Below are positions 12,162 to 37,194 of a stretch of DNA of 64,000 nucleotides, one piece after another (the first letter of the stretch is position 1; every line of letters starts with the position of its first letter). The DNA lies in the NCBI RefSeq assembly GCF_017355875.1, contig NZ_JAFEWC010000001.1, forward strand, positions 1,178,001 through 1,242,000, given 5' to 3'. This DNA is from Aridibaculum aurantiacum (GTDB taxonomy: Bacteria > Bacteroidota > Bacteroidia > Chitinophagales > Chitinophagaceae). A model generated the notes under the pieces. That model searched no databases and had not been told where the DNA came from. It saw nothing but the letters and a program-made list of their open reading frames with translations. The translations under genes were made by a program, and so were the position numbers.

Positions 12162-12977
12162 CTATTTCTCCATCTGCTCTATCACTTCAGCGGTTACACC
12201 TGTGAAGCTAAAGCCGCCATCGTGGAAGAGGTTCTGCATGGTGACAAAACGTGTAAGATCGCTGAATAATGCCACACAATAGTTGGCGCAATCCAATGCA
12301 TCGGCATTGCCCAGCGGGCTCATCTTTTCTGCGAACGATATAAAGCCATCGAAGCCTTTAACGCCGCTGCCGGCAGTAGTGCGGGTTGGCGACTGGCTAA
12401 CAGTATTGATGCGCACTTTGTTTTTTACACCATAGTGGTACCCAAAACTGCGGGTGATGCTTTCAAGCAAAGCTTTGGCATCGGCCATTTCGTTGTAATC
12501 AGGAAACACACGCTGTGCAGCTATATAAGTAAGCGCAACTACACTTCCCCATTCGCTGATAGCATCCAGTTCGTAAGCTGTCTGCAACACACGGTGCAGG
12601 CTCAATGCAGAAATATCAAGCGTCTTGTGCTGGAAGTCGTGGTTGAGCTTGGTATAATGAAATCCTTTGCGAATGTTGAGGCTCATGCCCACGCTGTGAA
12701 GAATAAAATCAACCTTTCCACTAAAGTGCTCCATTGATTTTTCAAACAGGTTCTTCAGGTCGTCCATGTTGGTAACATCGGCGCCAATAACAGGAGCGTT
12801 ACCACATTCTTCAGCCAGTTTATTTATTTCGCCCATGCGCAATGCGATGGGTGCGTTTGTAAGTACTATCTGTGCTCCTTCAGCATAACATTGTTGAGCG
12901 GTTTTCCAGGCAATAGACTGATCGTTCAATGCACCAAATATGATCCCTTTCTTTCCCTTCAATAGATTGTAAGCCAT
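12162..12977 (-). CDS. fabI: enoyl-[acyl-carrier-protein] reductase
   Basis: The 271-residue FabI catalyses the last, NADH-dependent reduction in each cycle of fatty acid elongation. The N-terminal nucleotide-binding segment GIIFGALNDQSIAW is the FabI version of the SDR glycine motif, and the active-site pair fits Tyr-x6-Lys (FPDYNEMADAK). LHSVG and the C-terminal NLFHDGGFSFTG are also typical. Members of this family are the usual target of triclosan-type inhibitors. Monocistronic in appearance. Confidence 0.96.
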   Translation of the reverse strand: MAYNLLKGKKGIIFGALNDQSIAWKTAQQCYAEGAQIVLTNAPIALRMGEINKLAEECGNAPVIGADVTNMDDLKNLFEKSMEHFSGKVDFILHSVGMSLNIRKGFHYTKLNHDFQHKTLDISALSLHRVLQTAYELDAISEWGSVVALTYIAAQRVFPDYNEMADAKALLESITRSFGYHYGVKNKVRINTVSQSPTRTTAGSGVKGFDGFISFAEKMSPLGNADALDCANYCVALFSDLTRFVTMQNLFHDGGFSFTGVTAEVIEQMEK

Positions 12978-13031
12978 AACAATTGGTTTTGTTTTTTGGT
13001 AAGAATGGCGGTAAAAATAGAAATTAGGAAG

Positions 13032-13247
13032 CTAACCCCGAAAAAAGAAACTGAAGTACAGCCACATGGATAATGCATGCATGAGGTAAGCCGTAGCTAT
13101 CACGCCAAAGAAGTACAACAGCAGGTTGCCAAATGTCCTGTTGGCATATGCTCTTGCCTTTAGTTTGTTGTGAACAAAATACACCGGTACTGCCACCAGT
13201 ATCAAATAAATCAATACCAGCCATTGCCAATGCGGAACGTTTTTCAT
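13032..13247 (-). CDS. small membrane protein of unknown function
   Basis: A 71-residue protein with two predicted membrane helices (about 8-26 and 43-65) joined by a basic loop (HNKLKARAYANRTFGN). I do not recognise a family. ATG 13247 gives MKNVPHWQW; an upstream ATG at 13256 adds three residues. It lies 82 bases downstream of recN on the same strand and could be co-transcribed. Confidence 0.6.
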   Translation of the reverse strand: MKNVPHWQWLVLIYLILVAVPVYFVHNKLKARAYANRTFGNLLLYFFGVIATAYLMHALSMWLYFSFFFRG

Positions 13248-13329
13248 TGGTAGCAACTTGAGAGTTGGCAGAAGGTAGAAGCGTAGCCTGTTATCATCTT
13301 AGTGAAATTTATAACCTGCAGCGTCCAAG

Positions 13330-14985
13330 TTAATTCATCACCATTTCGCGTGCATTTTCCAATGCTGCTGCGGTTGGTTTTTCACCGCTTAGCATTTGGG
13401 CTATAGCTGTGATGCGCTCATCCTGCGTTAGCTGTTTTATGTTGGTAGTGATGCTGTCGTTCTTTATTTGCTTGTAAACAAAGAAGTGCGCATTGGCCTT
13501 GCCGGCTATCTGCGGCTGGTGTGTGATGCAAATTACCTGGCGGGCAGTGGCAAGTTCTTTCATAATTACTCCTACCTGTTTTGCTGCTTCCCCGGATATA
13601 CCTGTGTCTATTTCATCGAAAATGAGCGTAGGAAGATCCATTGACTCTGCAACCAGTGATTTGATGCATAGCATCAGGCGGCTAAGTTCTCCACCGCTGG
13701 CCACTTTGCGTATCGGTTCAAAACGATTGCTCTTGTTGGCATCAAACAGGAATTCTATAGCATCGGCACCAAAGGCATGCAGTGCTGAAGGTGCTATTTG
13801 CACCTTTAGTCTAGCATTGGGCATACCTACCTGCGCCAGTAAGCGATTAACATTTTCTTCAAAAGACGGAGTTTGCTCCTGCCTGCGCTGCGAAAGGTTT
13901 TCTGCCAGCGTTGTACATGACTGGTGCAGTGTCTCTACCTGTTGTTGTTTTTCCAGTATGGTGTCATCAATATTAAGGACAGCCTGGAGTTTGCTGCTTA
14001 TCTCGTCTCTTATCTCAATGAGTTGCTTTGTGGTTTGTACACCATGCTTCTTCAGCAGTTTATAACCTGCAGACAAACGATCATTCACCTGGTCTACCCG
14101 CTCCTGGTCAAAGTTGATGTGGTCATTTACACCATCTAATTCATCGGCTATATCCTGCAGTTCTAGCTGGGCGCTGTACAATCTTTCTACAATAGCAGGT
14201 AAAGCAGGATGATAGTCAGCATAACCAACCAGCTGGTTTGCCAGTTGTTTTAGTTGTGGTATAATAGGTTGTTCGCTTTCCTTTAGCTCGAAGAAAACCT
14301 TGGTGAGCGAAGTCTTGATGCCTTCTGCATTTTCCAGCAGCTTCAATTCGTTTTCCAGGTCTTCCAGCTCATTGTCTGCCAGCTGTAGTTGGTCCAGCTC
14401 ATTGAAGATGAATTGGTGATAATCTGCTTCCTTTTGAAAGCTATCCTTTTCTGCCTGCAATTTCCTCAGCTCGGCTAGTTGTTGCTGCCACTTGCGATAT
14501 GCATGCTGGTACTCACCTAGCAGGTCGTTATTAGCGGCAAGAGCATCTAACACCTCGCGTTGAAAATCACTGTCGCCTATTTCTAACGTGTCGAACTGCT
14601 GGTGCAGGTCTACCAGCAGCGATGCCAGCTCTTTTAGTTGCTGCAAAGTGGCAGGTGTATCGTTTATAAATGCTCTCGATTTTCCATTCACTGCTATCTC
14701 TCTCCTGATCACCAGTTCAGCTTCATTATCCAGCTCGTTCTCCTCTATGAATTGCTTCACTGCCGACTTGCCGTCTACAGTAAAAAATCCTTCGACCACG
14801 CATTTCTTTTCCCGGTTCTGCAGCACAGAACTGTCAGCTCTTTCACCCAGTATAAGGCTCAGTGCGCCCATCAAAATACTCTTTCCAGCGCCTGTTTCAC
14901 CGGTTATAATGCTCAGGCTGCCGGGAAAGAAGATCTCCAGCGAATCGATTATTGCGTAGTTGTGTATATCCAGCTTGCGTAGCAT
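13330..14985 (-). CDS. recN: DNA repair protein RecN
   Basis: A 551-residue SMC-like ATPase acting early in double-strand break repair. Walker A GETGAGKS is at 29-36 after the typical MLRKLDIHNYAIID start. Long coiled-coil arms span about 155-380. The C-terminal half has the signature GGELSRLML and Walker B LIFDEIDTGISG, then the D/H-loop ITHQPQIAG. Length and motif order are normal for RecN. It is divergent from the YceI gene. Confidence 0.96.
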   Translation of the reverse strand: MLRKLDIHNYAIIDSLEIFFPGSLSIITGETGAGKSILMGALSLILGERADSSVLQNREKKCVVEGFFTVDGKSAVKQFIEENELDNEAELVIRREIAVNGKSRAFINDTPATLQQLKELASLLVDLHQQFDTLEIGDSDFQREVLDALAANNDLLGEYQHAYRKWQQQLAELRKLQAEKDSFQKEADYHQFIFNELDQLQLADNELEDLENELKLLENAEGIKTSLTKVFFELKESEQPIIPQLKQLANQLVGYADYHPALPAIVERLYSAQLELQDIADELDGVNDHINFDQERVDQVNDRLSAGYKLLKKHGVQTTKQLIEIRDEISSKLQAVLNIDDTILEKQQQVETLHQSCTTLAENLSQRRQEQTPSFEENVNRLLAQVGMPNARLKVQIAPSALHAFGADAIEFLFDANKSNRFEPIRKVASGGELSRLMLCIKSLVAESMDLPTLIFDEIDTGISGEAAKQVGVIMKELATARQVICITHQPQIAGKANAHFFVYKQIKNDSITTNIKQLTQDERITAIAQMLSGEKPTAAALENAREMVMN

Positions 14986-27699: not shown

Positions 27700-28896
27700 C
27701 TATTGCTCAAAAAATGCGATAGATCCGCCCACCCAGGTCTTGTCTTTGTTGTATCGTACACCAATCATCTTTCCTTTACTTAATCGTGCAAGATTGTGTG
27801 TTGCCACGGGGCGTGGTTCTCCATCTTTCCAGAAATAAAAAATGCGTATCTCAGCTTTAGCTGGTTCACCTGGTGTTTCTATAATATCAGCATATTTTAC
27901 TTTTTTCTGCAGTATCCAATTTTCCGGGTCTTTTACGTTTTCAATATCTTCTTTAGTAACATCAATCACAACTCCCTGCCCTGCAAAGGAAAATAGCGGC
28001 TTCAATACATATTGATCCAGGTCTTCAGGCAGTTCCTTTACATCATTCAGAAACCTGGTTGGCGGAACATAAGGATGTTCTATAAAAGGCAGCGTGTATT
28101 TACTAATGCGATAAAACCAATTAGGATGCGGCACCCATTCAACATCCAGTTCATCCAGTAGAAGTTTCCCTTTTTCCTGTACTTCGGCTGTTTGTTGCTG
28201 CAGGTCATCAAAAATCACCCGGTTGTAAATGCGCTTTATCTCCGTCTCTTTTCCATCCAGCAGGTAAAACAATTTGTTGCCTTTCCTTATCAGCTCCGTA
28301 AGGCAGACCATCTTGATTCCTAAGGCGTCTTCTGTTACAAAAAAGTCTATCCTTGTTTTTTGGTTGCGTGGGAATATTTCCAGCAGGATAACCTGCTCCG
28401 GTGCATGATCTCCAATTATGATCTCCTTTAAGAGTTTATAGTAGCTCTCTTCGTTGAACCCGTTCAGGTAGCTGTCATAATTTGGCGGCAATGGAAAGTG
28501 TTTCTTCATGGTCTTGCTATGCCATGCCTGGTATGCAAAAAGTGTAGGGAAGCCTTGCATTTCTATCAGCTGTGGCTCTAGTCCACCTTGTTCATTTTCA
28601 CAAATCCCAAAATCGAAAGCTATGAAATTTGGAATACCTTCTTGTCCGGGAACATGAACATTGGCAGGTATGGCGCGTGTAGATTGTTCCTTGAATGAAG
28701 GCTCCAAAATAACATCTACAATAGCCTCGCAGGCAGAAAGCATTTTGTTGGTGAAGTCTTTGTCGCAGAAGATTCCTGTCTCAGCTACACGGAAATCCAG
28801 CTGGCCCGGGTGAAGCCCATGCAGCTCGTCCAGGTAGCTTTGGTATTTTTCTTCTGTAAATCCTTCGTTGAACTCTTTCCTTATAGCCTTTACCAT
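27700..28896 (-). CDS. ATP-grasp-like hypothetical protein (amidoligase candidate)
   Basis: A 398-residue cytoplasmic protein not recognised by name. The C-terminal half has ATP-grasp features: YVLKPLFSFAGQGV (Lys-bearing strand plus glycine-rich loop), WILQKKVKYADII (adenine-contact region) and AEIRIFYFWKDG. The N-terminal half has IEMQGFPTLFAYQ, reminiscent of circularly permuted or glutathionylspermidine-synthase-like ATP-grasp enzymes. Such enzymes form amide bonds through acyl-phosphates. It lies 84 bases downstream of a class I glutamine amidotransferase on the same strand and near a second ATP-grasp and a carboxylate-amine ligase, which suggests a shared pathway. Convergent with the TlpA gene. 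Confidence 0.68.
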   Translation of the reverse strand: MVKAIRKEFNEGFTEEKYQSYLDELHGLHPGQLDFRVAETGIFCDKDFTNKMLSACEAIVDVILEPSFKEQSTRAIPANVHVPGQEGIPNFIAFDFGICENEQGGLEPQLIEMQGFPTLFAYQAWHSKTMKKHFPLPPNYDSYLNGFNEESYYKLLKEIIIGDHAPEQVILLEIFPRNQKTRIDFFVTEDALGIKMVCLTELIRKGNKLFYLLDGKETEIKRIYNRVIFDDLQQQTAEVQEKGKLLLDELDVEWVPHPNWFYRISKYTLPFIEHPYVPPTRFLNDVKELPEDLDQYVLKPLFSFAGQGVVIDVTKEDIENVKDPENWILQKKVKYADIIETPGEPAKAEIRIFYFWKDGEPRPVATHNLARLSKGKMIGVRYNKDKTWVGGSIAFFEQ

Positions 28897-28927
28897 TGCA
28901 GATAATTTATTGATACTTCGTAAAATA

Positions 28928-28960
28928 AATAATCCCTGCCAATAAACGGCAAGGATTATT
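28928..28960 (-). terminator. hairpin between the amidotransferase and ATP-grasp genes
   Basis: AATAATCCCTGCC (28928-28940) pairs with GGCAAGGATTATT (28948-28960) with one mismatch and a 7-base loop. The T-run on the - strand is weak (ATTTATTTTA), so it may attenuate transcription, not stop it. Confidence 0.5.
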
Positions 28961-28980
28961 CTGCTACCATGCTATAACCA

Positions 28981-29814
28981 CTATGCTAGCACTGCCACTG
29001 CCTGGTTAAGGAAGTTGGGTAAAATATTTTGGTAAGTAAGGGTGATCTTGCGCGGGTCGTTCAGGTTATCGATCATGTTCTGCCATTTCTCACGACCATA
29101 GTTTTCTATCACCGTCTGCATTTTGTCTTCCCTGTTCAGGTACATACTCATACCTGTTGGGTCGGCCTCAGGATGGAACTGAGTGCCGATAAAATAGTCG
29201 CTGAAACGAATGGCCATTACAGCACGTTCGTAAGGCACATGTGGACGTTCTTTTTCTATAGCCAGGATTTTAGCTCCCAGTTTTTTCAGCTGTGCATGGT
29301 TTGGTTCTATCACCTGGAAGTCGCGGCTATCCACTGCATAAAAAGGATCTTTCAGTCCTTCAAAAACAGGTTCACCTTTAGCACCCTGCATCATGTGAAT
29401 AGGGAAAATGCCAAAAGCCGTTGATTTTCGTTTGCACACATTGCCTGCATTGTAATACCTGCAAGCCATCTGGAAACTGTGGCAGATAAAGAAGACATAC
29501 TTCTTGTTTTCTTTAGAAACATCATTGTTCCATGCTTCTACATTTTGCAACCACTCGTAGTATTTATTCTCCCAATCGCTTCCTATGCTTTCCAATGGTG
29601 AACCCGGGCCACCGCTGGATATATAAATGTCATAATTAAGTCCCGGCACGGCTAAATTCTGCCTTACATCAAATTCATCCAGCACATATTCCAGTTGGTT
29701 TGCCTGGCCCCATTGATGAACAATCTCCCGGATACAGCGCATACCCTGGTTCTCCTTGCCCTCGTACAGGTCAAGGAGAGCTATGCGTACCTGTCGGTTT
29801 TCATTCCAATTCAT
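28981..29814 (-). CDS. class I glutamine amidotransferase domain protein
   Basis: A 277-residue protein with a complete class I GATase triad: nucleophile C111 in FFICHSFQMA, H214 and E216 in TQFHPEAD. The oxyanion region ISSGGPGSP near 66-72 also fits. These domains release ammonia from glutamine or hydrolyse gamma-glutamyl bonds. No synthase domain is fused, so ammonia would have to reach a separate partner, plausibly the ATP-grasp protein downstream. Alternatively it may act as a gamma-glutamyl hydrolase. Part of the probable amide-forming cluster at 27.7-37.2 kb. Confidence 0.85.
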   Translation of the reverse strand: MNWNENRQVRIALLDLYEGKENQGMRCIREIVHQWGQANQLEYVLDEFDVRQNLAVPGLNYDIYISSGGPGSPLESIGSDWENKYYEWLQNVEAWNNDVSKENKKYVFFICHSFQMACRYYNAGNVCKRKSTAFGIFPIHMMQGAKGEPVFEGLKDPFYAVDSRDFQVIEPNHAQLKKLGAKILAIEKERPHVPYERAVMAIRFSDYFIGTQFHPEADPTGMSMYLNREDKMQTVIENYGREKWQNMIDNLNDPRKITLTYQNILPNFLNQAVAVLA

Positions 29815-29939
29815 GCCGGCAAAACTACTAATTTTCTGCCGCCATCACTGTTTAAACGCTGTTATAGCCGCAGATGCAGGTGTACCAGCTTGTAAATGAA
29901 GAAGATGTAATTCCTGTTTTTTATCTTTTAGCAGGTGTT

Positions 29940-30659
29940 TTACCCGTGAAAAGCAATGAAAAAAAATGTAGACCGTTTGTGGAAGTGCTGCTCGAACTGT
30001 GGATGGGTGAGTGGTGGCTTGTTCGACAGGAATCGTGGCAATGTGTTTAGCCGGTAATTTTTGCTTTTTAAAAAGGCATACATCATGGCCGGAGTTATTC
30101 CGTAGGCATCAGATCCGCCTTTTCCAAATTCGAATAAAATGTGTGGATGATGTGCCTGCAGCAGGTTTGAAGCTCCTTGCAGTGCATGGTATTCTCCTCC
30201 TTCTATATCCAGTTTTACCAGGTCTATCTTTTCCGATGCAGGTATTACTTCATCCAAAGTAGCGGTTGCAACTTCTATGATCTCATCTTTTTCAGGCTTA
30301 TCGTAAGGACGCTTTAGAAGCCCGCTATAAGCAGGGTCGGTTATCACATAATTGAAACTGCTAGTTCCGCTTTTGTTGCTGATTGCTAATGGATGAATAT
30401 GCGCCGCACTGCTATACCTCCGTTTTAGTTTGTGGTATAAAAAAGGAATAGGTTCAAATGCATAATGCATACTGGCCGGGCAATGGCGAATGAATAGCGC
30501 CAGTATCTTTCCTTCGTTTGCGCCCACATCAACACATGTAGAATCAGCTTTGCATACACGCCGGATCACTCTTTCAGTCAACCTGTCGTAGTACTCATTT
30601 TTTGTAAGAGGAAATGGGAGAAGTGCCGCAATCTTTTTAAGAAAATTTCTTACCGACAT
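29940..30659 (-). CDS. FkbM family methyltransferase
   Basis: A 239-residue SAM-dependent methyltransferase. The SAM motif is VDVGANEGKIL (about 43-53), followed by the acidic strand YAFEP. The FkbM signature KIDLVKLDIEGGEYHALQG is present near 143-161. The family O-methylates sugars, polyketides or lipids. The ATG at 30659 directly follows the T-run of the upstream gene's terminator, so a promoter must lie within or before the upstream lipoprotein gene, or the hairpin acts in the leader. Substrate unknown. Confidence 0.93.
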   Translation of the reverse strand: MSVRNFLKKIAALLPFPLTKNEYYDRLTERVIRRVCKADSTCVDVGANEGKILALFIRHCPASMHYAFEPIPFLYHKLKRRYSSAAHIHPLAISNKSGTSSFNYVITDPAYSGLLKRPYDKPEKDEIIEVATATLDEVIPASEKIDLVKLDIEGGEYHALQGASNLLQAHHPHILFEFGKGGSDAYGITPAMMYAFLKSKNYRLNTLPRFLSNKPPLTHPQFEQHFHKRSTFFFIAFHG

Positions 30660-30685
30660 AAAAAAAGCAGGACAGTGTCCTGCTT
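30655..30685 (-). terminator. terminator of the lipoprotein gene, abutting the FkbM start codon
   Basis: On the - strand AAGCAGGAC and GTCCTGCTT (30685-30677 and 30673-30665, 3-base loop) are followed by a T-run that continues into the FkbM ATG at 30659. Confidence 0.85.
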
Positions 30686-30702
30686 GCTAAGATAAGCTTG
30701 TG

Positions 30703-31695
30703 CTACAGATTTTGAAGGTATTGCTCTACCTGTTGCATGGTGCGCTCCACAGGCTGCATAGAAACAGGCATATTAGCTGCGGTAGTTATTTCTTTTGTGC
30801 CTAAAAAAATTGTGTTTCCAAACTTAGAAAGCGAAACAATGGTAACCTGCCTGCCAACAGGCATATTTACCGTGAAGAAAGAGCGTGTGGCATAATCAGC
30901 ATTCAGCTGAACCACTATGTTCTCATTCTTAAAAACAGCAAACACATTGGTATTTGTGTTGGTGTAATTGATAGGGAAGAGTACGTTTAGCTGTGTGCGG
31001 GTTTGGGTAGTGTCGATGAAATAATCAGCATTTACCCAATTGAGCCGCTGCGACCAAAGCTCGTATCCCCGAACTATGCCGCCTGTAGAGTCCTGCTGTT
31101 GAAAAACACTTACAAAAGAAGAGTCTGTTGCCGGTGTCCATGTAAAAGTAGGATTGGTACCTGCAGGAAGATTACCTGTAGGATTTTCAATGCCATAAAA
31201 AATGCTCATCCTTTGATTAGGTGAAGTCGTATTGTACTTAATCCGGAAAAATGTGTTTTGTGCAAGCCTTAGTTCTTGGCCATTACTTGTAGCGCGAATA
31301 TGAAAAGCGCCTCCTGTTTCCAATAATTTACCATAGCTGGTAGTAGGCCTCGACCAGCGGATCATGTCTCCTTTCTTCCTCAGGTCAATAAGCTCAATAT
31401 TGATAGGTCCGGTAGGCGCAGCACCTGCAGAAGTTCGTAAAGAATTTGGTGCAATTCTTACTTGCAGGTCAGCAAAAGAAAGCACCGCACCATTATTACC
31501 AGTGAAAGATGAGGTAGCAGGAGCGGTTCTCAAGCTTTCCATCAGTTGTGCGGCCTGGTTGTTTGCAGGTACATGTTGTACCCATGCAGTATCATTTACC
31601 GGGTTGTTAGGATAGGGGAAAAAGCTATCGGAATTTTCTTTTGAACACGAAGAAAATACCAAAGTAAATATGAGTAGGTAAAACAAGTTCTTCAT
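30703..31695 (-). CDS. lipoprotein of unknown function
   Basis: A 330-residue predicted lipoprotein: MKNLFYLLIFTLVFSSCSKEN has a clear lipobox (FSSC) with C17. The mature part is beta-rich with FTGNNGAVLSFADLQVRIAPNSL near the N-terminus, similar to ZU5-like or adhesin-type modules often seen in Bacteroidota surface proteins. No enzyme motif is visible. ATG 31695 is chosen because the longer frame (to 31746) would overlap the upstream gene and lose the lipoprotein signal. It starts 22 bases after the barrel-protein stop and completes an ECF / barrel / lipoprotein operon. Confidence 0.75.
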   Translation of the reverse strand: MKNLFYLLIFTLVFSSCSKENSDSFFPYPNNPVNDTAWVQHVPANNQAAQLMESLRTAPATSSFTGNNGAVLSFADLQVRIAPNSLRTSAGAAPTGPINIELIDLRKKGDMIRWSRPTTSYGKLLETGGAFHIRATSNGQELRLAQNTFFRIKYNTTSPNQRMSIFYGIENPTGNLPAGTNPTFTWTPATDSSFVSVFQQQDSTGGIVRGYELWSQRLNWVNADYFIDTTQTRTQLNVLFPINYTNTNTNVFAVFKNENIVVQLNADYATRSFFTVNMPVGRQVTIVSLSKFGNTIFLGTKEITTAANMPVSMQPVERTMQQVEQYLQNL

Positions 31696-31717
31696 TAGTG
31701 CCATTTGCTTGTAGATA

Positions 31718-33259
31718 TTATCGGCTGTACGATTGCTGCCTGCCATTTAATTTAAACCTAAGTCCGATGTTCAGACCAGCTGCATGAAACTTCTGTTGGA
31801 AAGGCAAGGAGCTATTGGTCATATTGCTAATGTGGTAACGGAAATAAGGTTCAGCAAATATTTCGCTGCTGGCTCCAATTGATTTATAAAAAGCCACACT
31901 GGCAAATACACCCAATCCAATATTTCTTTTAAACATGGAATTGCCTTTGGTGAACATTACCGGGTTGTACGAAGTATCCAGCATATCGCCTTGCTGCCAC
32001 GACTGCAGGTTAAAGATCAACCCGCCGTTGATGCTTGTTCTGAAGTTTTCATTACCCCATTCATAGCCCAATATTACCGGCACATCTATGCTGCGGTAGC
32101 GGTTGAACGTGGTCTTCACCCTATAGCCAATCTGTTCCATGGTGCTGGTGTCGGTTACTCTTATGGTATCGCCGGGTGAACGAACAATGGTACGTATGGT
32201 TACCACCGTTACCGTTTTACGTTCGTTTTCACTTCTGAAGTTGAACTTCTCGTTGATCTGCGAAAACTGTAGCCCAGACTTTAGCATCATATTCTGGCCG
32301 ATGGTTTTGCTGATGCGAAAACCGGCTGTGAATGCACTTCTGAAATTCTCGGTGCTGTCTTTACGACGCAGGTATTCATCATTAGAACTGGTTGTGTTTT
32401 TAATTGCGTAATCAGGCGAAGCGAACACTTCTAAGAACCAGTTGCTCCTGCGTTCGCCATCTGCTGGAGGGCATTCTACTACAGGTAAAAAATTTAGTTT
32501 GTTTAATGTGCCGTTATGAGAGCTGGAGAATGCAGATCCGCTTCTTTTCGCAAGCATTGGTATTGCATCTGTTCTGTTATAAACAGTAACACCTTCCTCC
32601 GCTGCCGCTTTTTTATTAAATGAAACATCAATGGCTGGCAGACCTGCAGGTAATGGTTTCTTTTCATTTACTTGTTGACCAAAGGCCGGTGCAGTTACCT
32701 CTTTTTTGAACTTAGCAAATGCTCGTGCAGATCTTTTTTCATTGCCTGATGATGTAGCAGATCTATCACGTGTTGTAGCTACTTGTTCTACTTCTTTGTC
32801 TGTAGTAAGTATTGAAGAATTGGTTGTTGCCACTTTTGCGGCAGTGCTAGTGGCTGTTTTAGCCTCGTCACTTGTTGTACTGTTTGCTATTCCTGTTTCG
32901 GTTGAAGGTGCTGTTGAAGTGGCAGCAAGATCCAGCGGTTCGTTACTACTATTTCCACCCGGAATAGAATTTATTGTTGGTTCAGCTGTTTGTTGGGCAG
33001 GTATGTTAGCAGGAGCTATTGAAGATGAACTGTGAGTTATGCCTTTATCATCTTGCTTTGAATAGAAGTAAATAAATGAACTGGTTACCAACAGTGCAGT
33101 TAGAATCAGCATCCAGTTTTTATAGTTATTCCACCACAAAGCGGGCTTCCGATCCTTTTCTTTTTCAGCAAGTATACGCTGCCACATATCGCCCGGTACG
33201 GGTGATGCATGATCTTGTAGCTTGTTCCTGATGAAATTATCAAAATGCTGATCACTCAT
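31718..33259 (-). CDS. inner-membrane-anchored protein with C-terminal beta-barrel-like domain
   Basis: A 513-residue protein with an unusual topology. Residues 1-48 are hydrophilic with a short helix (MSDQHFDNFIRNKLQDH, GDMWQRILAEKEKDRK). One membrane helix spans about 49-67 (WMLILTALLVTSSFIYFY). A long Ser/Thr/Ala-rich linker (70-180) follows. From about 273 (NWFLEVFASPDYAI) to the end there are barrel-type strands (FRSAFTAGFRISKTIG, LNIGLRFKLN). It starts 2 bases after the ECF sigma stop, so it is translationally coupled. The N-terminal part could bind the sigma factor as an anti-sigma, but no known anti-sigma motif is evident. Confidence 0.75.
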   Translation of the reverse strand: MSDQHFDNFIRNKLQDHASPVPGDMWQRILAEKEKDRKPALWWNNYKNWMLILTALLVTSSFIYFYSKQDDKGITHSSSSIAPANIPAQQTAEPTINSIPGGNSSNEPLDLAATSTAPSTETGIANSTTSDEAKTATSTAAKVATTNSSILTTDKEVEQVATTRDRSATSSGNEKRSARAFAKFKKEVTAPAFGQQVNEKKPLPAGLPAIDVSFNKKAAAEEGVTVYNRTDAIPMLAKRSGSAFSSSHNGTLNKLNFLPVVECPPADGERRSNWFLEVFASPDYAIKNTTSSNDEYLRRKDSTENFRSAFTAGFRISKTIGQNMMLKSGLQFSQINEKFNFRSENERKTVTVVTIRTIVRSPGDTIRVTDTSTMEQIGYRVKTTFNRYRSIDVPVILGYEWGNENFRTSINGGLIFNLQSWQQGDMLDTSYNPVMFTKGNSMFKRNIGLGVFASVAFYKSIGASSEIFAEPYFRYHISNMTNSSLPFQQKFHAAGLNIGLRFKLNGRQQSYSR

Positions 33260-33261
33260 TT

Positions 33262-33798
33262 TTAGATGGCGATTTTTTGCAGGTTAACGATTTGGTTTTG
33301 CAACATTTTCCGTGCTTTTACTAATTGACTGCGGCTGGTGCCTGGCTGTATATCCAGCATCTTAGCAATTTCTTCGTGGCTAAATCCTTCTATGATACTC
33401 AGGTTGAAGACCAGCCGGTAGCCTTCAGGAAGTTGTTGTATCAGTTTCATTATCTCCTCTTCTCCCAGGCTAGAATATGCATAAGCATCAATGCGCGGAG
33501 AATGTTCAGAATGATCATTGATCTCAGAGAAAGCTAATTTTCGCTTTTGAACATACTTCAGGGCAGTATTTACTACTATACGCCTGATCCATCCCTCAAA
33601 AGAACCCTCGAATTTGAATTGGTGAATATACCGGAACACACGCACCATGGAATCCTGCAGTATATCTTCTGCTTCCATGGTATCAATGGCATAACGCAGG
33701 CATACGGTCATCATCTTGCCAGCGTATTGCTCAAATAGCTTACGCTGGCAGGTAATGTCCTCCCTAATACAGCCTCTAATGAGATCGTGTTCAGTCAA
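33262..33798 (-). CDS. RNA polymerase ECF sigma factor
   Basis: An extracytoplasmic-function sigma-70 of about 178 residues. Region 2 is KLFEQYAGKMMTVCLRYA...DILQDSMVRVFRYI (core binding and -10 recognition), with WIRRIVVNTALKY; region 4 has LPEGYRLVFNLSIIEGFSHEEIAKML, a typical HTH. The frame is open to an ATG at 33897, but homologous ECF proteins begin close to TEHDLIRGC, so a TTG at 33798 is preferred. The next gene starts 2 bases after its stop and probably encodes its regulator. Confidence 0.9.
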   Translation of the reverse strand: MTEHDLIRGCIREDITCQRKLFEQYAGKMMTVCLRYAIDTMEAEDILQDSMVRVFRYIHQFKFEGSFEGWIRRIVVNTALKYVQKRKLAFSEINDHSEHSPRIDAYAYSSLGEEEIMKLIQQLPEGYRLVFNLSIIEGFSHEEIAKMLDIQPGTSRSQLVKARKMLQNQIVNLQKIAI

Positions 33799-33943
33799 TG
33801 TTATTGAATATATGGCCGGTGACCGGTGGCTAGATATGTTTATAAAGCATACCGCTGCCCGGAGATCTAACAAACCTAAAATTTTCTTGCACAGCATGAT
33901 AGCTATACAAGTTATACGAGCTTAAACCTATATAAGCGGGAAT

Positions 33944-33974
33944 AAAAAAGCAACAACTGCGGCGAGTTGTTGCT
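33944..33974 (-). terminator. terminator of the carboxylate-amine ligase gene
   Basis: AGCAACAACT (33949-33958) pairs with AGTTGTTGCT (33965-33974), 6-base loop, with T6 on the - strand. The arms are identical to those of the terminator at 35192-35218. Confidence 0.88.
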
Positions 33975-33998
33975 TAGAAGAGTTTGTTCGGCGAGATC

Positions 33999-35114
33999 TT
34001 ACTGGTCCACTTTTAGAAACTGGTCGTGGATATAATCTACTACCGCACTCATATCTTTTGTTTCATTAAATACTTTTAACTGGCGGTCGGCTCCGGTTCC
34101 GCGGTCGAGCATACGATGCACATAATTGATGGCATTGCGGCTGCCTAAGTGGTCTACCACATCATCTACAAAATCAAGTAGCTCGTAAATAAGTACACGG
34201 GTATTCACTTCTGCTTCCTTTCCAAAATCAATCATAGTTCCGTCGATACCATACCTGCCTGCACGCCATTTGTTTTCATTTATAAGCGTACGGTGATACA
34301 TAATGAAATTCAGGTTCTGGCTTCTTAGCTTGTAAAGCTTAGCACATATAGCCTGGAAAAGAGCTGCAATTGCAATGGTCTCATCTATATTCATGGGCAC
34401 ATCGCAAATGCGGAACTCTACCGTATTGAAAAATGGATGAACCCGCAGGTCCCACCAAATCTTCTTGGCGTTATCTATACAGTTGGTTTTTACCAGCAGC
34501 TTGATGTAGTTATCGTATGACTCTATGCTTTCAAAAAAATCTGGTATGCCGGTACGTGGGAACTTGTCGAAAACTTTGGTGCGGAATGATTTGTATCCTG
34601 TAAGCCTTCCTTCCCAGAAAGGGGAGTTGGTGCTAAGGGCATAGACGTGTGGTAAAAAATAACGTGCAGAATTGGCTATATGTATGGCCATTTCGCGTGT
34701 CTCCATTCCAACGTGCACGTGCAGGCCAAAGATCAGGTTACTCCTGGCTGCTTCCTGCAGTTCATTTACTATTTCGCTATAGCGGATGTGATCTGTAATC
34801 AACTGCCGCTCCCAATGACTAAATGGATGCGTGCCTGCAGCGCCTACCCACAATCCAAGGTCGCCGGCAATCTGTGAAATGGTTGTTCTTAAAGCAGCAA
34901 CATCTCTATAGGCTTCATCAATATTTTCGCATATATCAGTTCCTACTTCTACCACTGCCTGGTGCATCTCAGCTTTTACCTTATCCTTGATCACCTTTTG
35001 TCCTTCTGAAACTATCTTTTGTTCATGGCTTTTCAACTCCCTGGTCTGAGGATCTATTACCATGTATTCTTCTTCTACTCCAAGTGTAAAGTGTTTGTAG
35101 CTGATGCTTGCCAT
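33999..35114 (-). CDS. carboxylate-amine ligase (GCS2/YbdK family)
   Basis: A 371-residue member of the glutamate-cysteine ligase type 2 superfamily, which joins a carboxylate to an amine with ATP. The metal- and substrate-binding LGVEEEYMVID is at 11-21; ENIDEAYRDVAALR, GLHVHVGMETREMA and the later EFRICDVPMNIDETIAIAAL are all typical of YbdK-type enzymes. E. coli YbdK has weak GCL activity; the natural substrates of most members are unknown. It lies 112 bases downstream of an ATP-grasp gene, and a class I GATase and another ATP-grasp lie further down, which suggests a multi-step amide or peptide-like product. Confidence 0.93.
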   Translation of the reverse strand: MASISYKHFTLGVEEEYMVIDPQTRELKSHEQKIVSEGQKVIKDKVKAEMHQAVVEVGTDICENIDEAYRDVAALRTTISQIAGDLGLWVGAAGTHPFSHWERQLITDHIRYSEIVNELQEAARSNLIFGLHVHVGMETREMAIHIANSARYFLPHVYALSTNSPFWEGRLTGYKSFRTKVFDKFPRTGIPDFFESIESYDNYIKLLVKTNCIDNAKKIWWDLRVHPFFNTVEFRICDVPMNIDETIAIAALFQAICAKLYKLRSQNLNFIMYHRTLINENKWRAGRYGIDGTMIDFGKEAEVNTRVLIYELLDFVDDVVDHLGSRNAINYVHRMLDRGTGADRQLKVFNETKDMSAVVDYIHDQFLKVDQ

Positions 35115-35179
35115 TGTGTCGTTTTTGGTTCTTGCTTTTGTTCGTAGGTGATTACTGTTACACTATCTACAGAACTACT

Positions 35180-35218
35180 TTTAGAAAAAGAAGCAACAAC
35201 TTTTGAAGAGTTGTTGCT
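35180..35218 (-). terminator. terminator of the second ATP-grasp gene
   Basis: AGCAACAACT (35192-35201) pairs with AGTTGTTGCT (35209-35218), 7-base loop, with a T-rich tail (CTTTTTCTAAAAG) on the - strand. It lies 9 bases past the gene stop. Confidence 0.82.
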
Positions 35219-35226
35219 TACATGAA

Positions 35227-36180
35227 TTAATACAAAGCTTGTTTGCCGCTGCTGCGTACAACATATTCTCCCCATGTCAGGTTATCTTTTCCTGGTTCAA
35301 AACTCTGGGCTTTTTCTATGGCAAATTTAGCGGCGGTTTCTACCACCCATTCAAAGTTCTCCTGGCCTACGCTGGTTACTTCAGCATCAGGAGCGGGGTT
35401 ACAAAAATCAATAGCATAAGGAATTCCATCTCTTACGGCTAGTTCCACTGTATTGAAATCATAACCCAGGTATTTATTTAATCGAAGGACAATGTCTTCC
35501 ATCTCCGCCAGCTTTTCTGCTGTAGGAGCAAAGTCAGCTACATAACGCAGGTGAAATGGATTGCGTGGTTCGTATGGCATTATGCGTACATATTTACCAC
35601 CTATACAATAGCAGCGATAGTATTCTTCGAATTTTATCTCTTCCTGCAGTAGCATCACCAGTTGGCCTGTTTCTGCATGCGCGTTGAAGAAATCATCAAT
35701 GCTATCCAGGCGGTAAACATTCTTCCAACCGCCACCGGCAAAAGGCTTCATATAAGTTGGGAAGCCGGTATAAGAAAAAATTCCTTCCCAATCGAGCGGG
35801 TATGCAAGGTTGCTGAAAGACTCATCTGATGTATCGCTCGGTAGTTCCCTTGATGGAAGAATAACCGTTTTAGGCACCGGAACATTGATCTTGGTTGCAA
35901 GGCAATTATTGAAGAACTTCTCGTCGGCGCTCCACCAAAAGGGATTGTTGATAACAGCAGTGCCGGTAAGCGCAGCATTCTTCAGATAAGCGCGATAGAA
36001 AGGAACATCCTGGCTAATCCTATCAATAATAACAGCATAACCTGATGGTTCACCCTGTACTACTTTATCAATACGAACCGGTTCCGCTATAATTCCGTCT
36101 AGCTTTTGGCTGTTGATCTTTTCAATGAAGGCTTCCGGGAAGCTTCTTTCCTTACCGAACAAAATGCCGATCTTTTTCAT
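35227..36180 (-). CDS. ATP-grasp domain protein (RimK/D-Ala-D-Ala ligase-like)
   Basis: A 317-residue putative amide-bond ligase. The N-terminal domain (KKIGILFGKERSFPEAFIEKIN) resembles the pre-ATP-grasp fold. The ATP-grasp core has a Lys-containing strand and glycine-rich loop (PTYMKPFAGGGWKNVYRL), the adenine-contact segment MLLQEEIKFEEYYRCY and the metal-binding C-terminal YAIDFCNPAPDAE. It is upstream of the GCS2 ligase on the same strand and divergent from an esterase gene. With the other amide-forming genes it is likely to act on a common small-molecule or peptide substrate, which is unknown. Confidence 0.83.
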   Translation of the reverse strand: MKKIGILFGKERSFPEAFIEKINSQKLDGIIAEPVRIDKVVQGEPSGYAVIIDRISQDVPFYRAYLKNAALTGTAVINNPFWWSADEKFFNNCLATKINVPVPKTVILPSRELPSDTSDESFSNLAYPLDWEGIFSYTGFPTYMKPFAGGGWKNVYRLDSIDDFFNAHAETGQLVMLLQEEIKFEEYYRCYCIGGKYVRIMPYEPRNPFHLRYVADFAPTAEKLAEMEDIVLRLNKYLGYDFNTVELAVRDGIPYAIDFCNPAPDAEVTSVGQENFEWVVETAAKFAIEKAQSFEPGKDNLTWGEYVVRSSGKQALY

Positions 36181-36366
36181 AATCTGTTTTTAGATGATAG
36201 TATTGGAATAGGTATAGTAATTGAATTCTTAAAAAGTGAACAATACTAAAATTTTTAAGGGATTAGAACGTTCACCAATATACTTACTATTTTAAACCCA
36301 GCATGTATTACATAGAAAAACTTTGTCATCAAAACATTGTTTTTTAAACACCTATTTTTGAACAGT

Positions 36367-37194
36367 ATGGCTGAAGAAAAAACCGCACCCTCTCCAAAAT
36401 CCTTATCATCAGTTCTTGTAGAGACGCTCACGATTTACTCTGAGTTTTTAGAAAGAGATGTAGAAGTAGATGCTTATTTACCTACCGATATTGTCATTCC
36501 TGAAGATGTAAGCTTGCTGATCATTAACGATGGGCAAGACCTTGTAAAGATGCCCTTTGATGAGATGATTGATGAACTGATGTCTACAGGTAAGATACAG
36601 AAGATCATGTGCCTGGGCATTCATTGTGGGCCAGAAAGAAAAATGGAATATGGTACCGTGTGTACTGCCGACTACGAAGGACGTGGAGCTAAGGCTGGTT
36701 TATACTCTAAGTTCGTTTTCGATGAATTGTTGCCATTTATCCGCAAGAAGTACCATATAGCTTCCTTCAAAGAAAAAGCTTTTGCGGGTTTTTCTTTAGG
36801 AGGATTAAGTGCACTTGACCTGGTATGGAACAATGCCAGCGAGTTTAGCAAAGTAGGTGTTTTCAGTGGCTCGCTTTGGTGGCGGAGAAAAGGCTACGAT
36901 GACGGCTATAACGATGAAAAGGATCGCATTATGCACCTGCAGGTACAGAAAGGCAGGTTTCATCCGTGGTTACAATTCTTTTTTCAAACCGGATTATTAG
37001 ATGAAACTGCAGATAGAAATAATAATGGCATAATAGATTCGGTAGATGATGCGTTAGATATGATATTGTCGCTAAAGTCGAAAGGGTATACCGATGATCA
37101 TATCAATTATCTTGAACTGCCGGATGGCCGTCATGATGTAGAAACATGGGCTAAGGCTCTGCCAAAGTTTCTGAAGTGGGGTTGGGGTAAGTAA
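36367..37194 (+). CDS. alpha/beta-hydrolase, esterase D / enterochelin-esterase-like
   Basis: A 275-residue cytoplasmic serine hydrolase. The nucleophile is S143 in GFSLGG, the acid probably lies in the Asp-rich DRNNNGIIDSVDDAL region and the catalytic His in GRHDVETW near the C-terminus. The first half has ISLLIINDGQDL and CLGIHCGPERKMEYGT, typical of Fes/EsD-like enzymes. ATG 36367 is preferred; an in-frame upstream ATG (36337) precedes a promoter-like TATTTTTG at 36353. It is divergent from the ATP-grasp gene and probably shares its control region; it may hydrolyse an ester in the product of the adjacent cluster. Confidence 0.85.
   Translation: MAEEKTAPSPKSLSSVLVETLTIYSEFLERDVEVDAYLPTDIVIPEDVSLLIINDGQDLVKMPFDEMIDELMSTGKIQKIMCLGIHCGPERKMEYGTVCTADYEGRGAKAGLYSKFVFDELLPFIRKKYHIASFKEKAFAGFSLGGLSALDLVWNNASEFSKVGVFSGSLWWRRKGYDDGYNDEKDRIMHLQVQKGRFHPWLQFFFQTGLLDETADRNNNGIIDSVDDALDMILSLKSKGYTDDHINYLELPDGRHDVETWAKALPKFLKWGWGK

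Follow-up and report, generated by a model that had tools for sequence, protein, structure and literature searches.

Two ATP-grasp ligases, a YbdK-family ligase, a GATase-like protein and hydrolases as one conserved gene set in Aridibaculum aurantiacum and other Bacteroidota

In the NAGGN osmolyte pathway, an ATP-grasp ligase and a glutamine amidotransferase yield an amidated dipeptide. Linked unrelated peptide ligases often perform successive ligations, according to the excerpted text of PMC4431377, and in the excerpt of PMC12568646 the fungal ligase Cp1B (structure 9CJN) couples a dicarboxylic (epoxysuccinic) acid to an amino acid, while YgiC and YjfC are termed peptidylpolyamine synthetases. 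The present analysis concerns a set of genes for such enzymes in a 64,000-nucleotide stretch of Aridibaculum aurantiacum DNA (contig NZ_JAFEWC010000001.1, positions 1,178,001 to 1,242,000), hereafter the window. The four core genes encode two ATP-grasp ligases (ATPg1 and ATPg2), a carboxylate-amine ligase (GCS2), and a stand-alone protein resembling class I glutamine amidotransferases (GATases), named GAT; two hydrolases, Est beside ATPg2 and c4 elsewhere in the genome, were added as likely partners. Results showed that the genes form one unit, as seen from co-occurrence, fixed order, retention when scattered and replacement of one ligase by another. The core genes and the hydrolases were read, at a probability of roughly 0.55, as one pathway for the assembly and trimming of a small peptide or peptide-amine, either amidated or of the gamma-glutamyl type. 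That the genes share a pathway is very probable and that its product is small and peptide-like is rather likely, while confidence in the order of the steps and in the role of GAT is low.

The locus may share with the NAGGN pathway the logic of a ligase working with an amidotransferase, but the enzyme families differ. GCS2 resembles YbdK and other carboxylate-amine ligases in curated cut-offs and structures, and differs from them in its multi-ligase setting. ATPg1 is alike in fold to eukaryotic-type glutathione synthetase, GspS, YgiC, YjfC and Cp1B, but differs in having 10-15% identity and a GSP_synth score below the cut-off; E112-x-Q114 of ATPg1, placed by eye, stands against E163/N165 of Cp1B. 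RimK, LysX and ArgX gave the best folds for ATPg2, which differs in scoring 22.7 bits against rimK_fam (TIGR00768; cut-off 143.4) and in its modest TM-scores. The likeness to amidoligase neighbourhoods lies in the linkage of unrelated peptide ligases (PMC4431377, excerpt). No account of this gene set was found in the literature searched, which included excerpts of PMC12316311 and PMC2922099 and did not cover the 2009 amidoligase survey by Iyer and colleagues; the phylum-wide counts, the c4 partner and the c13 swap given below were derived in this analysis.

The first-pass annotation had proposed one shared pathway for five enzyme families and asked whether these stay together in other Bacteroidota without the FkbM and ECF genes found among them here. 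The core genes were searched in one set of 296 Bacteroidota genomes, at E<=1e-5 for ATPg1 and ATPg2 and at E<=1e-20 for GAT and GCS2, and were present in 92 (ATPg1), 109 (ATPg2, with one weak match in G094), 70 (GAT) and 103 (GCS2) genomes. Counted as both, first only, second only and neither, the pairs gave 89, 3, 20 and 184 genomes for ATPg1 and ATPg2, 87, 5, 16 and 188 for ATPg1 and GCS2, 69, 40, 1 and 186 for ATPg2 and GAT, and 55, 37, 15 and 189 for ATPg1 and GAT. All four genes occurred in 50 genomes and none in 175, and GCS2 stood alone in 9. In 29 genomes the four core genes fit into 7 kb of a single strand, with the order ATPg2-GCS2-GAT-ATPg1 in 29/29, so that the core genes do stay together in other Bacteroidota and the proposal of a shared pathway was borne out by their co-occurrence and contiguity. 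Closer to home, a search of the genus, family and order found ATPg2 in 33 of 59 genomes (own genome included). All four core genes were present in each of the nine sampled members of the family whose ATPg2 is well conserved.

The genes were also retained where they are scattered: G114 kept ATPg1, ATPg2, GCS2 and c4, G233 kept ATPg1, ATPg2, GAT and c4, and G192 kept ATPg1, ATPg2 and GCS2 though dispersed. GCS2 was not found in four f18 genomes with the other three core genes; ATPg2, GAT and ATPg1 adjoin in three of these and are dispersed in the fourth, G233. The grouping of the genes exceeds chance. It is very improbable that they are unrelated neighbours held together by general synteny: conserved RibBA/TamB are frequent neighbours of the cluster within the family, but relatives of these were not seen in the stretches from other families, where the core order is unchanged, scattered genes are retained, and the shared profile spans many families. 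Those stretches were 27 loci chosen mostly outside the own family, in which open reading frames (ORFs) of at least 90 amino acids (aa) were considered. The ORF filter lost genes overlapped by longer spurious ORFs (in L074 neither ATPg2 nor GAT appears among the filtered ORFs, though genome searches place both there), and the neighbour counts from these loci are therefore lower bounds.

Further partners were sought in a test set of 80 genomes: 12 without ATPg2 (7 printed as no match for all four genes and 5 merely missing from the match tables) and, drawn across families, 68 of the 109 that have it. In families with ATPg2 and GAT and without ATPg1, an ATP-grasp protein of the circularly permuted type, c13, sits between those two genes; its PF14403 and PF04174 matches each passed the cut-off in L075 only. 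c13 was present in 12 of the 13 tested genomes lacking ATPg1 (the exception being G215), scored 660-957 bits in the twelve, and lay between ATPg2 and GAT in 11/12, GAT of G344 being on another contig. Homology of c13 to ATPg1 beyond the superfamily was tried and rejected (hhalign probability 3%), so c13 is treated here as a replacement and not as an orthologue. Where ATPg1 is absent, c13 usually takes its place.

Two hydrolases accompany the ligases. The divergent esterase of the first-pass annotation was upheld (75.1 bits for PF00756 vs a cut-off of 22; orientation opposite to ATPg2), the ATG at 36367 being the start taken in that annotation. Of 70 close-relative loci with >2 kb of sequence upstream of ATPg2, 69 have the esterase there in divergent orientation, and 9 of the 27 loci chosen mostly from other families have a PF00756 esterase inside the cluster or close to it. 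The second, c4, is an alpha/beta hydrolase of ~237 aa with invariant S118 (GxSxG), D189 and H219, and was found directly upstream of ATPg2 in 15/27 loci. It was present in 68 of 68 genomes with ATPg2 vs 1 of 12 without (the exception being G071), including G215, where a diverged ATPg2 is the only core gene found and c4 matched at E 2e-54. The own-genome copy lies outside the window (G000:C4:345213-345929). Since c4 stands between the esterase and ATPg2 in 4 of 56 close-relative loci with >8 kb downstream (L129, L148, L150, L160), and since the esterase still diverges from c4 in G233 with its scattered core (L177), the results suggest that esterase-c4-ATPg2 is the ancestral order. The list of members given at first stood for its five families and proved incomplete, as it lacked c4 and, in other families, c13.

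The ORFs named in the first-pass annotation were all found at their positions, and its claim of two different ATP-grasp ligases is backed by structure models, with no family model above its cut-off. For ATPg1, GSP_synth (PF03738) reached 14.6 bits (cut-off 29.3). The AlphaFold2 model (pLDDT 88.0) gave 22 Foldseek matches at E<=0.001, each to a protein of the glutathione synthetase/GspS/YgiC/YjfC/Cp1B type, the best with E 2.3e-15 and a TM-score of 0.64 by query length, and the next match beyond them had E 0.11. ATPg1 is thus, by its model, predicted to be a ligase of the glutathione synthetase/GspS/YgiC fold. ATPg2 reached 14.4 bits for R2K_2 (cut-off 26.2), and its model (pLDDT 88.5) matched ligases of the ArgX/LysX/RimK/Ddl type, the best being ArgX 3vpc with E 2.4e-12; K145 and the GGGWK motif were kept in 15 of 16 aligned sequences. 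The models place the two proteins in different branches of the ATP-grasp fold. Five genomes carry ATPg2 as the sole core gene (G023, G142, G215, G341 and, with its weak match, G094). The copies of the first four have 33-42% identity to that of the window and altered glycine-rich motifs; G023, in which ATPg1, GAT and GCS2 were not found, has a copy of 36-37% identity that lost the glycine-rich motif and is the only one of the four to have lost the ATP-grasp lysine. These diverged lone copies (L055, L181, L182, L183) may be enzymes in decay or put to a new use.

Among the closest folds to ATPg2 are ArgX and LysX (one of the structures holds the carrier protein LysW as well), along with PsnB and RimK, and bacterial ATP-grasp ligases have been proposed to tag proteins with peptides (PMC4431377, excerpt). 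ATPg2 and the other ligases might then modify a protein with amino acids or with a small tag, which GAT, c4 and Est would remove. Such protein tagging is unlikely, as no recurring small carrier or target protein was seen beside the core among ORFs of at least 90 aa, a survey that did not cover smaller ones and lost some genes to the ORF filter, and as ATPg1 matches ligases of the glutathione synthetase group only.

The GCS2 assignment was confirmed by 206.5 bits for PF04107 (cut-off 21) and 527.9 bits for NF010039 (PRK13515; cut-off 371), and YbdK-type structures 1r8g and 1tt4 were matched; it is the single PF04107 match in its own genome. GCS2 with a ligase of the glutathione synthetase fold follows the logic of glutathione, so that the product could be a low-molecular-weight thiol resembling it, with gamma-Glu-Cys made by GCS2 and extended by ATPg1 and ATPg2. 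This was judged improbable, slightly more so than protein tagging: a second ligase, a GATase-like protein and hydrolases exceed what glutathione needs, and the bacillithiol enzyme BshC occurs in 79 of the 80 test genomes, with or without the system. A role of the set as substitute for bacillithiol was rejected, because BshC is near-universal and not complementary to it.

GAT scored 40.7 bits for PF00117 (cut-off 22.8), and C111, H214 and E216, earlier noted as intact, were invariant in 13/13 aligned sequences, that of the window among them. The nucleophile region reads FICHSFQ, with S113, two residues past the cysteine, also invariant in the 13 sequences. Against the homoserine O-succinyltransferase (HTS) family PF04204, GAT reached 20.8 bits, below the cut-off of 27. 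At E<=1, Pfam gave PF00117 and HTS alone, with no Peptidase_C26/PuuD match, and none of the six NCBIfam hits was a PuuD model. A GCS2-type ligase paired with a class I GATase-like protein that stands alone is reminiscent of the PuuA/PuuD logic of the Puu putrescine pathway, in which case GCS2 would gamma-glutamylate an amine for utilisation and GAT would remove the gamma-glutamyl group. That reading is also improbable, a shade below the thiol: apart from the missing Peptidase_C26 match, no amine oxidase or aldehyde dehydrogenase was seen among the recurring neighbour families that were annotated here, a minority of the neighbours, and two extra ATP-using ligases are unexpected for catabolism.

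For the preferred reading, a single biosynthetic and trimming pathway, the linkage of the genes was observed, and the chemistry and product proposed here follow the chemistry of the families. GCS2 would activate a carboxylate, probably the glutamate gamma-carboxyl, and then form an amide with an amine. ATPg2, being RimK/LysX-like, would add an amino acid to a carboxylate through an acyl phosphate, and ATPg1, also through an acyl phosphate, or c13 in its place, would add a further amine-bearing unit. The Cys-His-Glu triad of GAT may supply ammonia from glutamine for an amidation, or may remove a gamma-glutamyl group (from glutamine or a pathway intermediate), and c4 and Est may cleave or transfer an acyl group.

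Several observations weigh against this predicted pathway. Class I GATases usually carry a GxCxG nucleophile elbow, and GAT has ICHSF instead; the best solved-structure match of its profile is the homoserine O-succinyltransferase 2vdj (E 1.6e-4). GAT is therefore called GATase-like and not a proven amidotransferase, and the motif and the structure match make an acyl transferase possible. The TM-scores of ATPg2 are modest, at ~0.4-0.5. Pair co-occurrence gave Fisher p values down to 1e-51 in the 296 genomes, which overstate the case because relatedness was ignored. Of the 92 genomes with ATPg1, 37 gave no GAT match at E<=1e-20, the seven f47 genomes among them, and 5 gave no GCS2 match at that threshold. 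There were 12 genomes with GCS2 and without ATPg2, nine of them with none of the other three genes, and their scores were lower. ATPg1 occurred without ATPg2 in G199, G209 and G275; G209 keeps ATPg1, GAT and GCS2 in order, with other ORFs beside GCS2 where ATPg2 is expected (L184:5400-7400), and the contig continues, so that the absence is not due to an assembly end.

Further such points concern the gene order near home, c13 and c4. Same-strand GAT was found in 13/56 and same-strand ATPg1 in 12/56 close-relative loci, with both on the other strand in one more (L151), and the split between ATPg2/GCS2 and GAT/ATPg1 is therefore usual there. Two of 55 genomes with ATPg1, both f47, also had lower-scoring relatives of c13 (G192, 348 bits, E 7e-104; G134, E 4e-11). 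The nine tested Chitinophagaceae matches to c4 (E 1e-55 to 1e-63) lie away from ATPg2 and score below most operon copies. As G279 and G291 each hold one operon-type c4 and one lower-scoring copy, the copies away from ATPg2 may belong to a paralogous subfamily.

The set reaches beyond the family. FMO protein, which we take to be a marker of green sulfur bacteria, was found in 9 of 53 tested genomes, namely seven of f47 (7/7 tested), G334 (f68) and G142 (f34). The seven f47 genomes and G334 have ATPg1, ATPg2 and GCS2, with GAT not found at E<=1e-20, G142 has the diverged ATPg2 only, and c4 was present in 2/2 f47 genomes tested. By these matches the set appears to extend in part, with three of four core genes, to green sulfur bacteria. 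Named relatives nearest by ATPg2 bear mostly Chitinophagaceae, Chitinophagales or Bacteroidetes titles (at least 588 confirmed, the best 80 viewed), and in this search with ATPg2 alone, cultured Sediminibacterium, Niabella, Hydrotalea and Flavihumibacter strains were among the matches listed. No match to ATPg1 or ATPg2 was seen among the plasmid records searched, and no ATPg1 relative was encoded on the viral contigs searched. Given the wide spread and the conservation of the set and the absence of plasmid matches, the product would seem to be of general use (a cofactor, an osmolyte or a signalling compound) and not an antibiotic peculiar to one strain; the conserved pathway is probably a housekeeping one. 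More tentatively, and at somewhat less than even odds, it may be an ancient primary-metabolism pathway of Bacteroidota and green sulfur bacteria, making a widespread gamma-glutamyl or amidated peptide cofactor or osmolyte with a lineage-specific ligase swap. A gene set kept across the phylum leads directly towards a common metabolite that would be new; it would also give functions by association to proteins now annotated merely as ATP-grasp, amidotransferase or esterase, and offer a natural case of one ligase replacing another within the same pathway.

An ECF operon and an FkbM gene separate GCS2 from GAT in the window and divide the set in two (Table 1). These had been suspected to be insertions, and the suspicion held: relatives of neither were present inside the contiguous clusters of other families in the 27-locus survey, and both therefore look like insertions. 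Among the 56 close-relative loci, 18 had a relative of the beta-barrel protein, 17 had the ECF gene downstream of GCS2 and on its strand, and 1 had FkbM together with GAT. The ECF/beta-barrel-like/347-aa operon recurs downstream of GCS2 in ~17/56 of these loci.

Table 1 Features of the gene set and of the genes inserted in it, in positions of the window
Feature	Position	Strand	Basis
ATPg2, RimK/LysX-like ATP-grasp ligase (predicted), 317 aa, first of four core genes	35227..36180	-	AlphaFold2/Foldseek
GCS2, YbdK-family carboxylate-amine (gamma-glutamyl-type) ligase, 371 aa	33999..35114	-	PF04107, NF010039
GAT, stand-alone class I glutamine amidotransferase-like protein, 277 aa	28981..29814	-	PF00117, C111/H214/E216
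ATPg1, glutathione synthetase/GspS-fold ligase (predicted), 398 aa, last of four core genes	27700..28896	-	AlphaFold2/Foldseek
Est, esterase divergent from ATPg2, likely partner; ATG at 36367	36337..37194	+	PF00756
FkbM-family methyltransferase, apparently inserted between the halves, non-core	29940..30659	-	TIGR01444
ECF operon, apparently inserted, non-core	30703..33897	-	PF04542/PF08281 for ECF
ECF sigma factor	33262-33897	-	PF04542/PF08281
Protein with weak beta-barrel match	31718-33259	-	PF13568, 26.4 bits, just below cut-off 27
347-aa protein of the ECF operon	30703-31746	-	

Another ATP-grasp protein, c6, with a weak likeness to dapdiamide synthase and ligases akin to it, was seen in L064 (5715-6923), L052, L054, L066 and L073; in three of these (L052, L064, L066) an esterase and an M17 aminopeptidase adjoin it. 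It was found in 37 of 68 test genomes with ATPg2 vs 0 of 12 without, and was commoner where GCS2 is missing (11/13 vs 26/55, p 0.03). No c6 was found in the own genome at E<=1e-40, so it is at most accessory.

A link to cyanophycin was examined and rejected, since the TIGR02068 synthetase was not enriched (13/68 genomes with ATPg2, one of them sub-cut-off, vs 2/12 without). Near the cluster, a cyanophycinase was seen in L064 and L080, an isoaspartyl peptidase-like gene in L064, L073 and L080, and a cyanophycin synthetase in L064; the own genome has two cyanophycin synthetase genes outside the window (G000:C3:974857-977442 and G000:C1:1403340-1405931).

Beside the cluster in L080, one ORF (12963-14522) joins an esterase with a DinB/mycothiol S-transferase-like domain. 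Among the neighbours of non-operon c4, one unannotated family recurred in 5 loci (L162, L164, L171, L174, L176) and others in at most 3. The neighbours of scattered genes that were set aside were an aromatic lyase, an amidohydrolase, an efflux pump and a serine palmitoyltransferase-like gene; the amidohydrolase was seen next to ATPg1 twice (L069, L079), and the serine palmitoyltransferase-like gene lies ~90 bp before ATPg1 in the FMO-bearing G192 (L078:7048-8319), perhaps by chance. The Bacteroidetes-type promoter pattern had 4 matches in the window vs 3.98 expected, of which a single one is close to the set: it lies within ATPg2 (35322-35355, minus strand), ~210 bp before GCS2.

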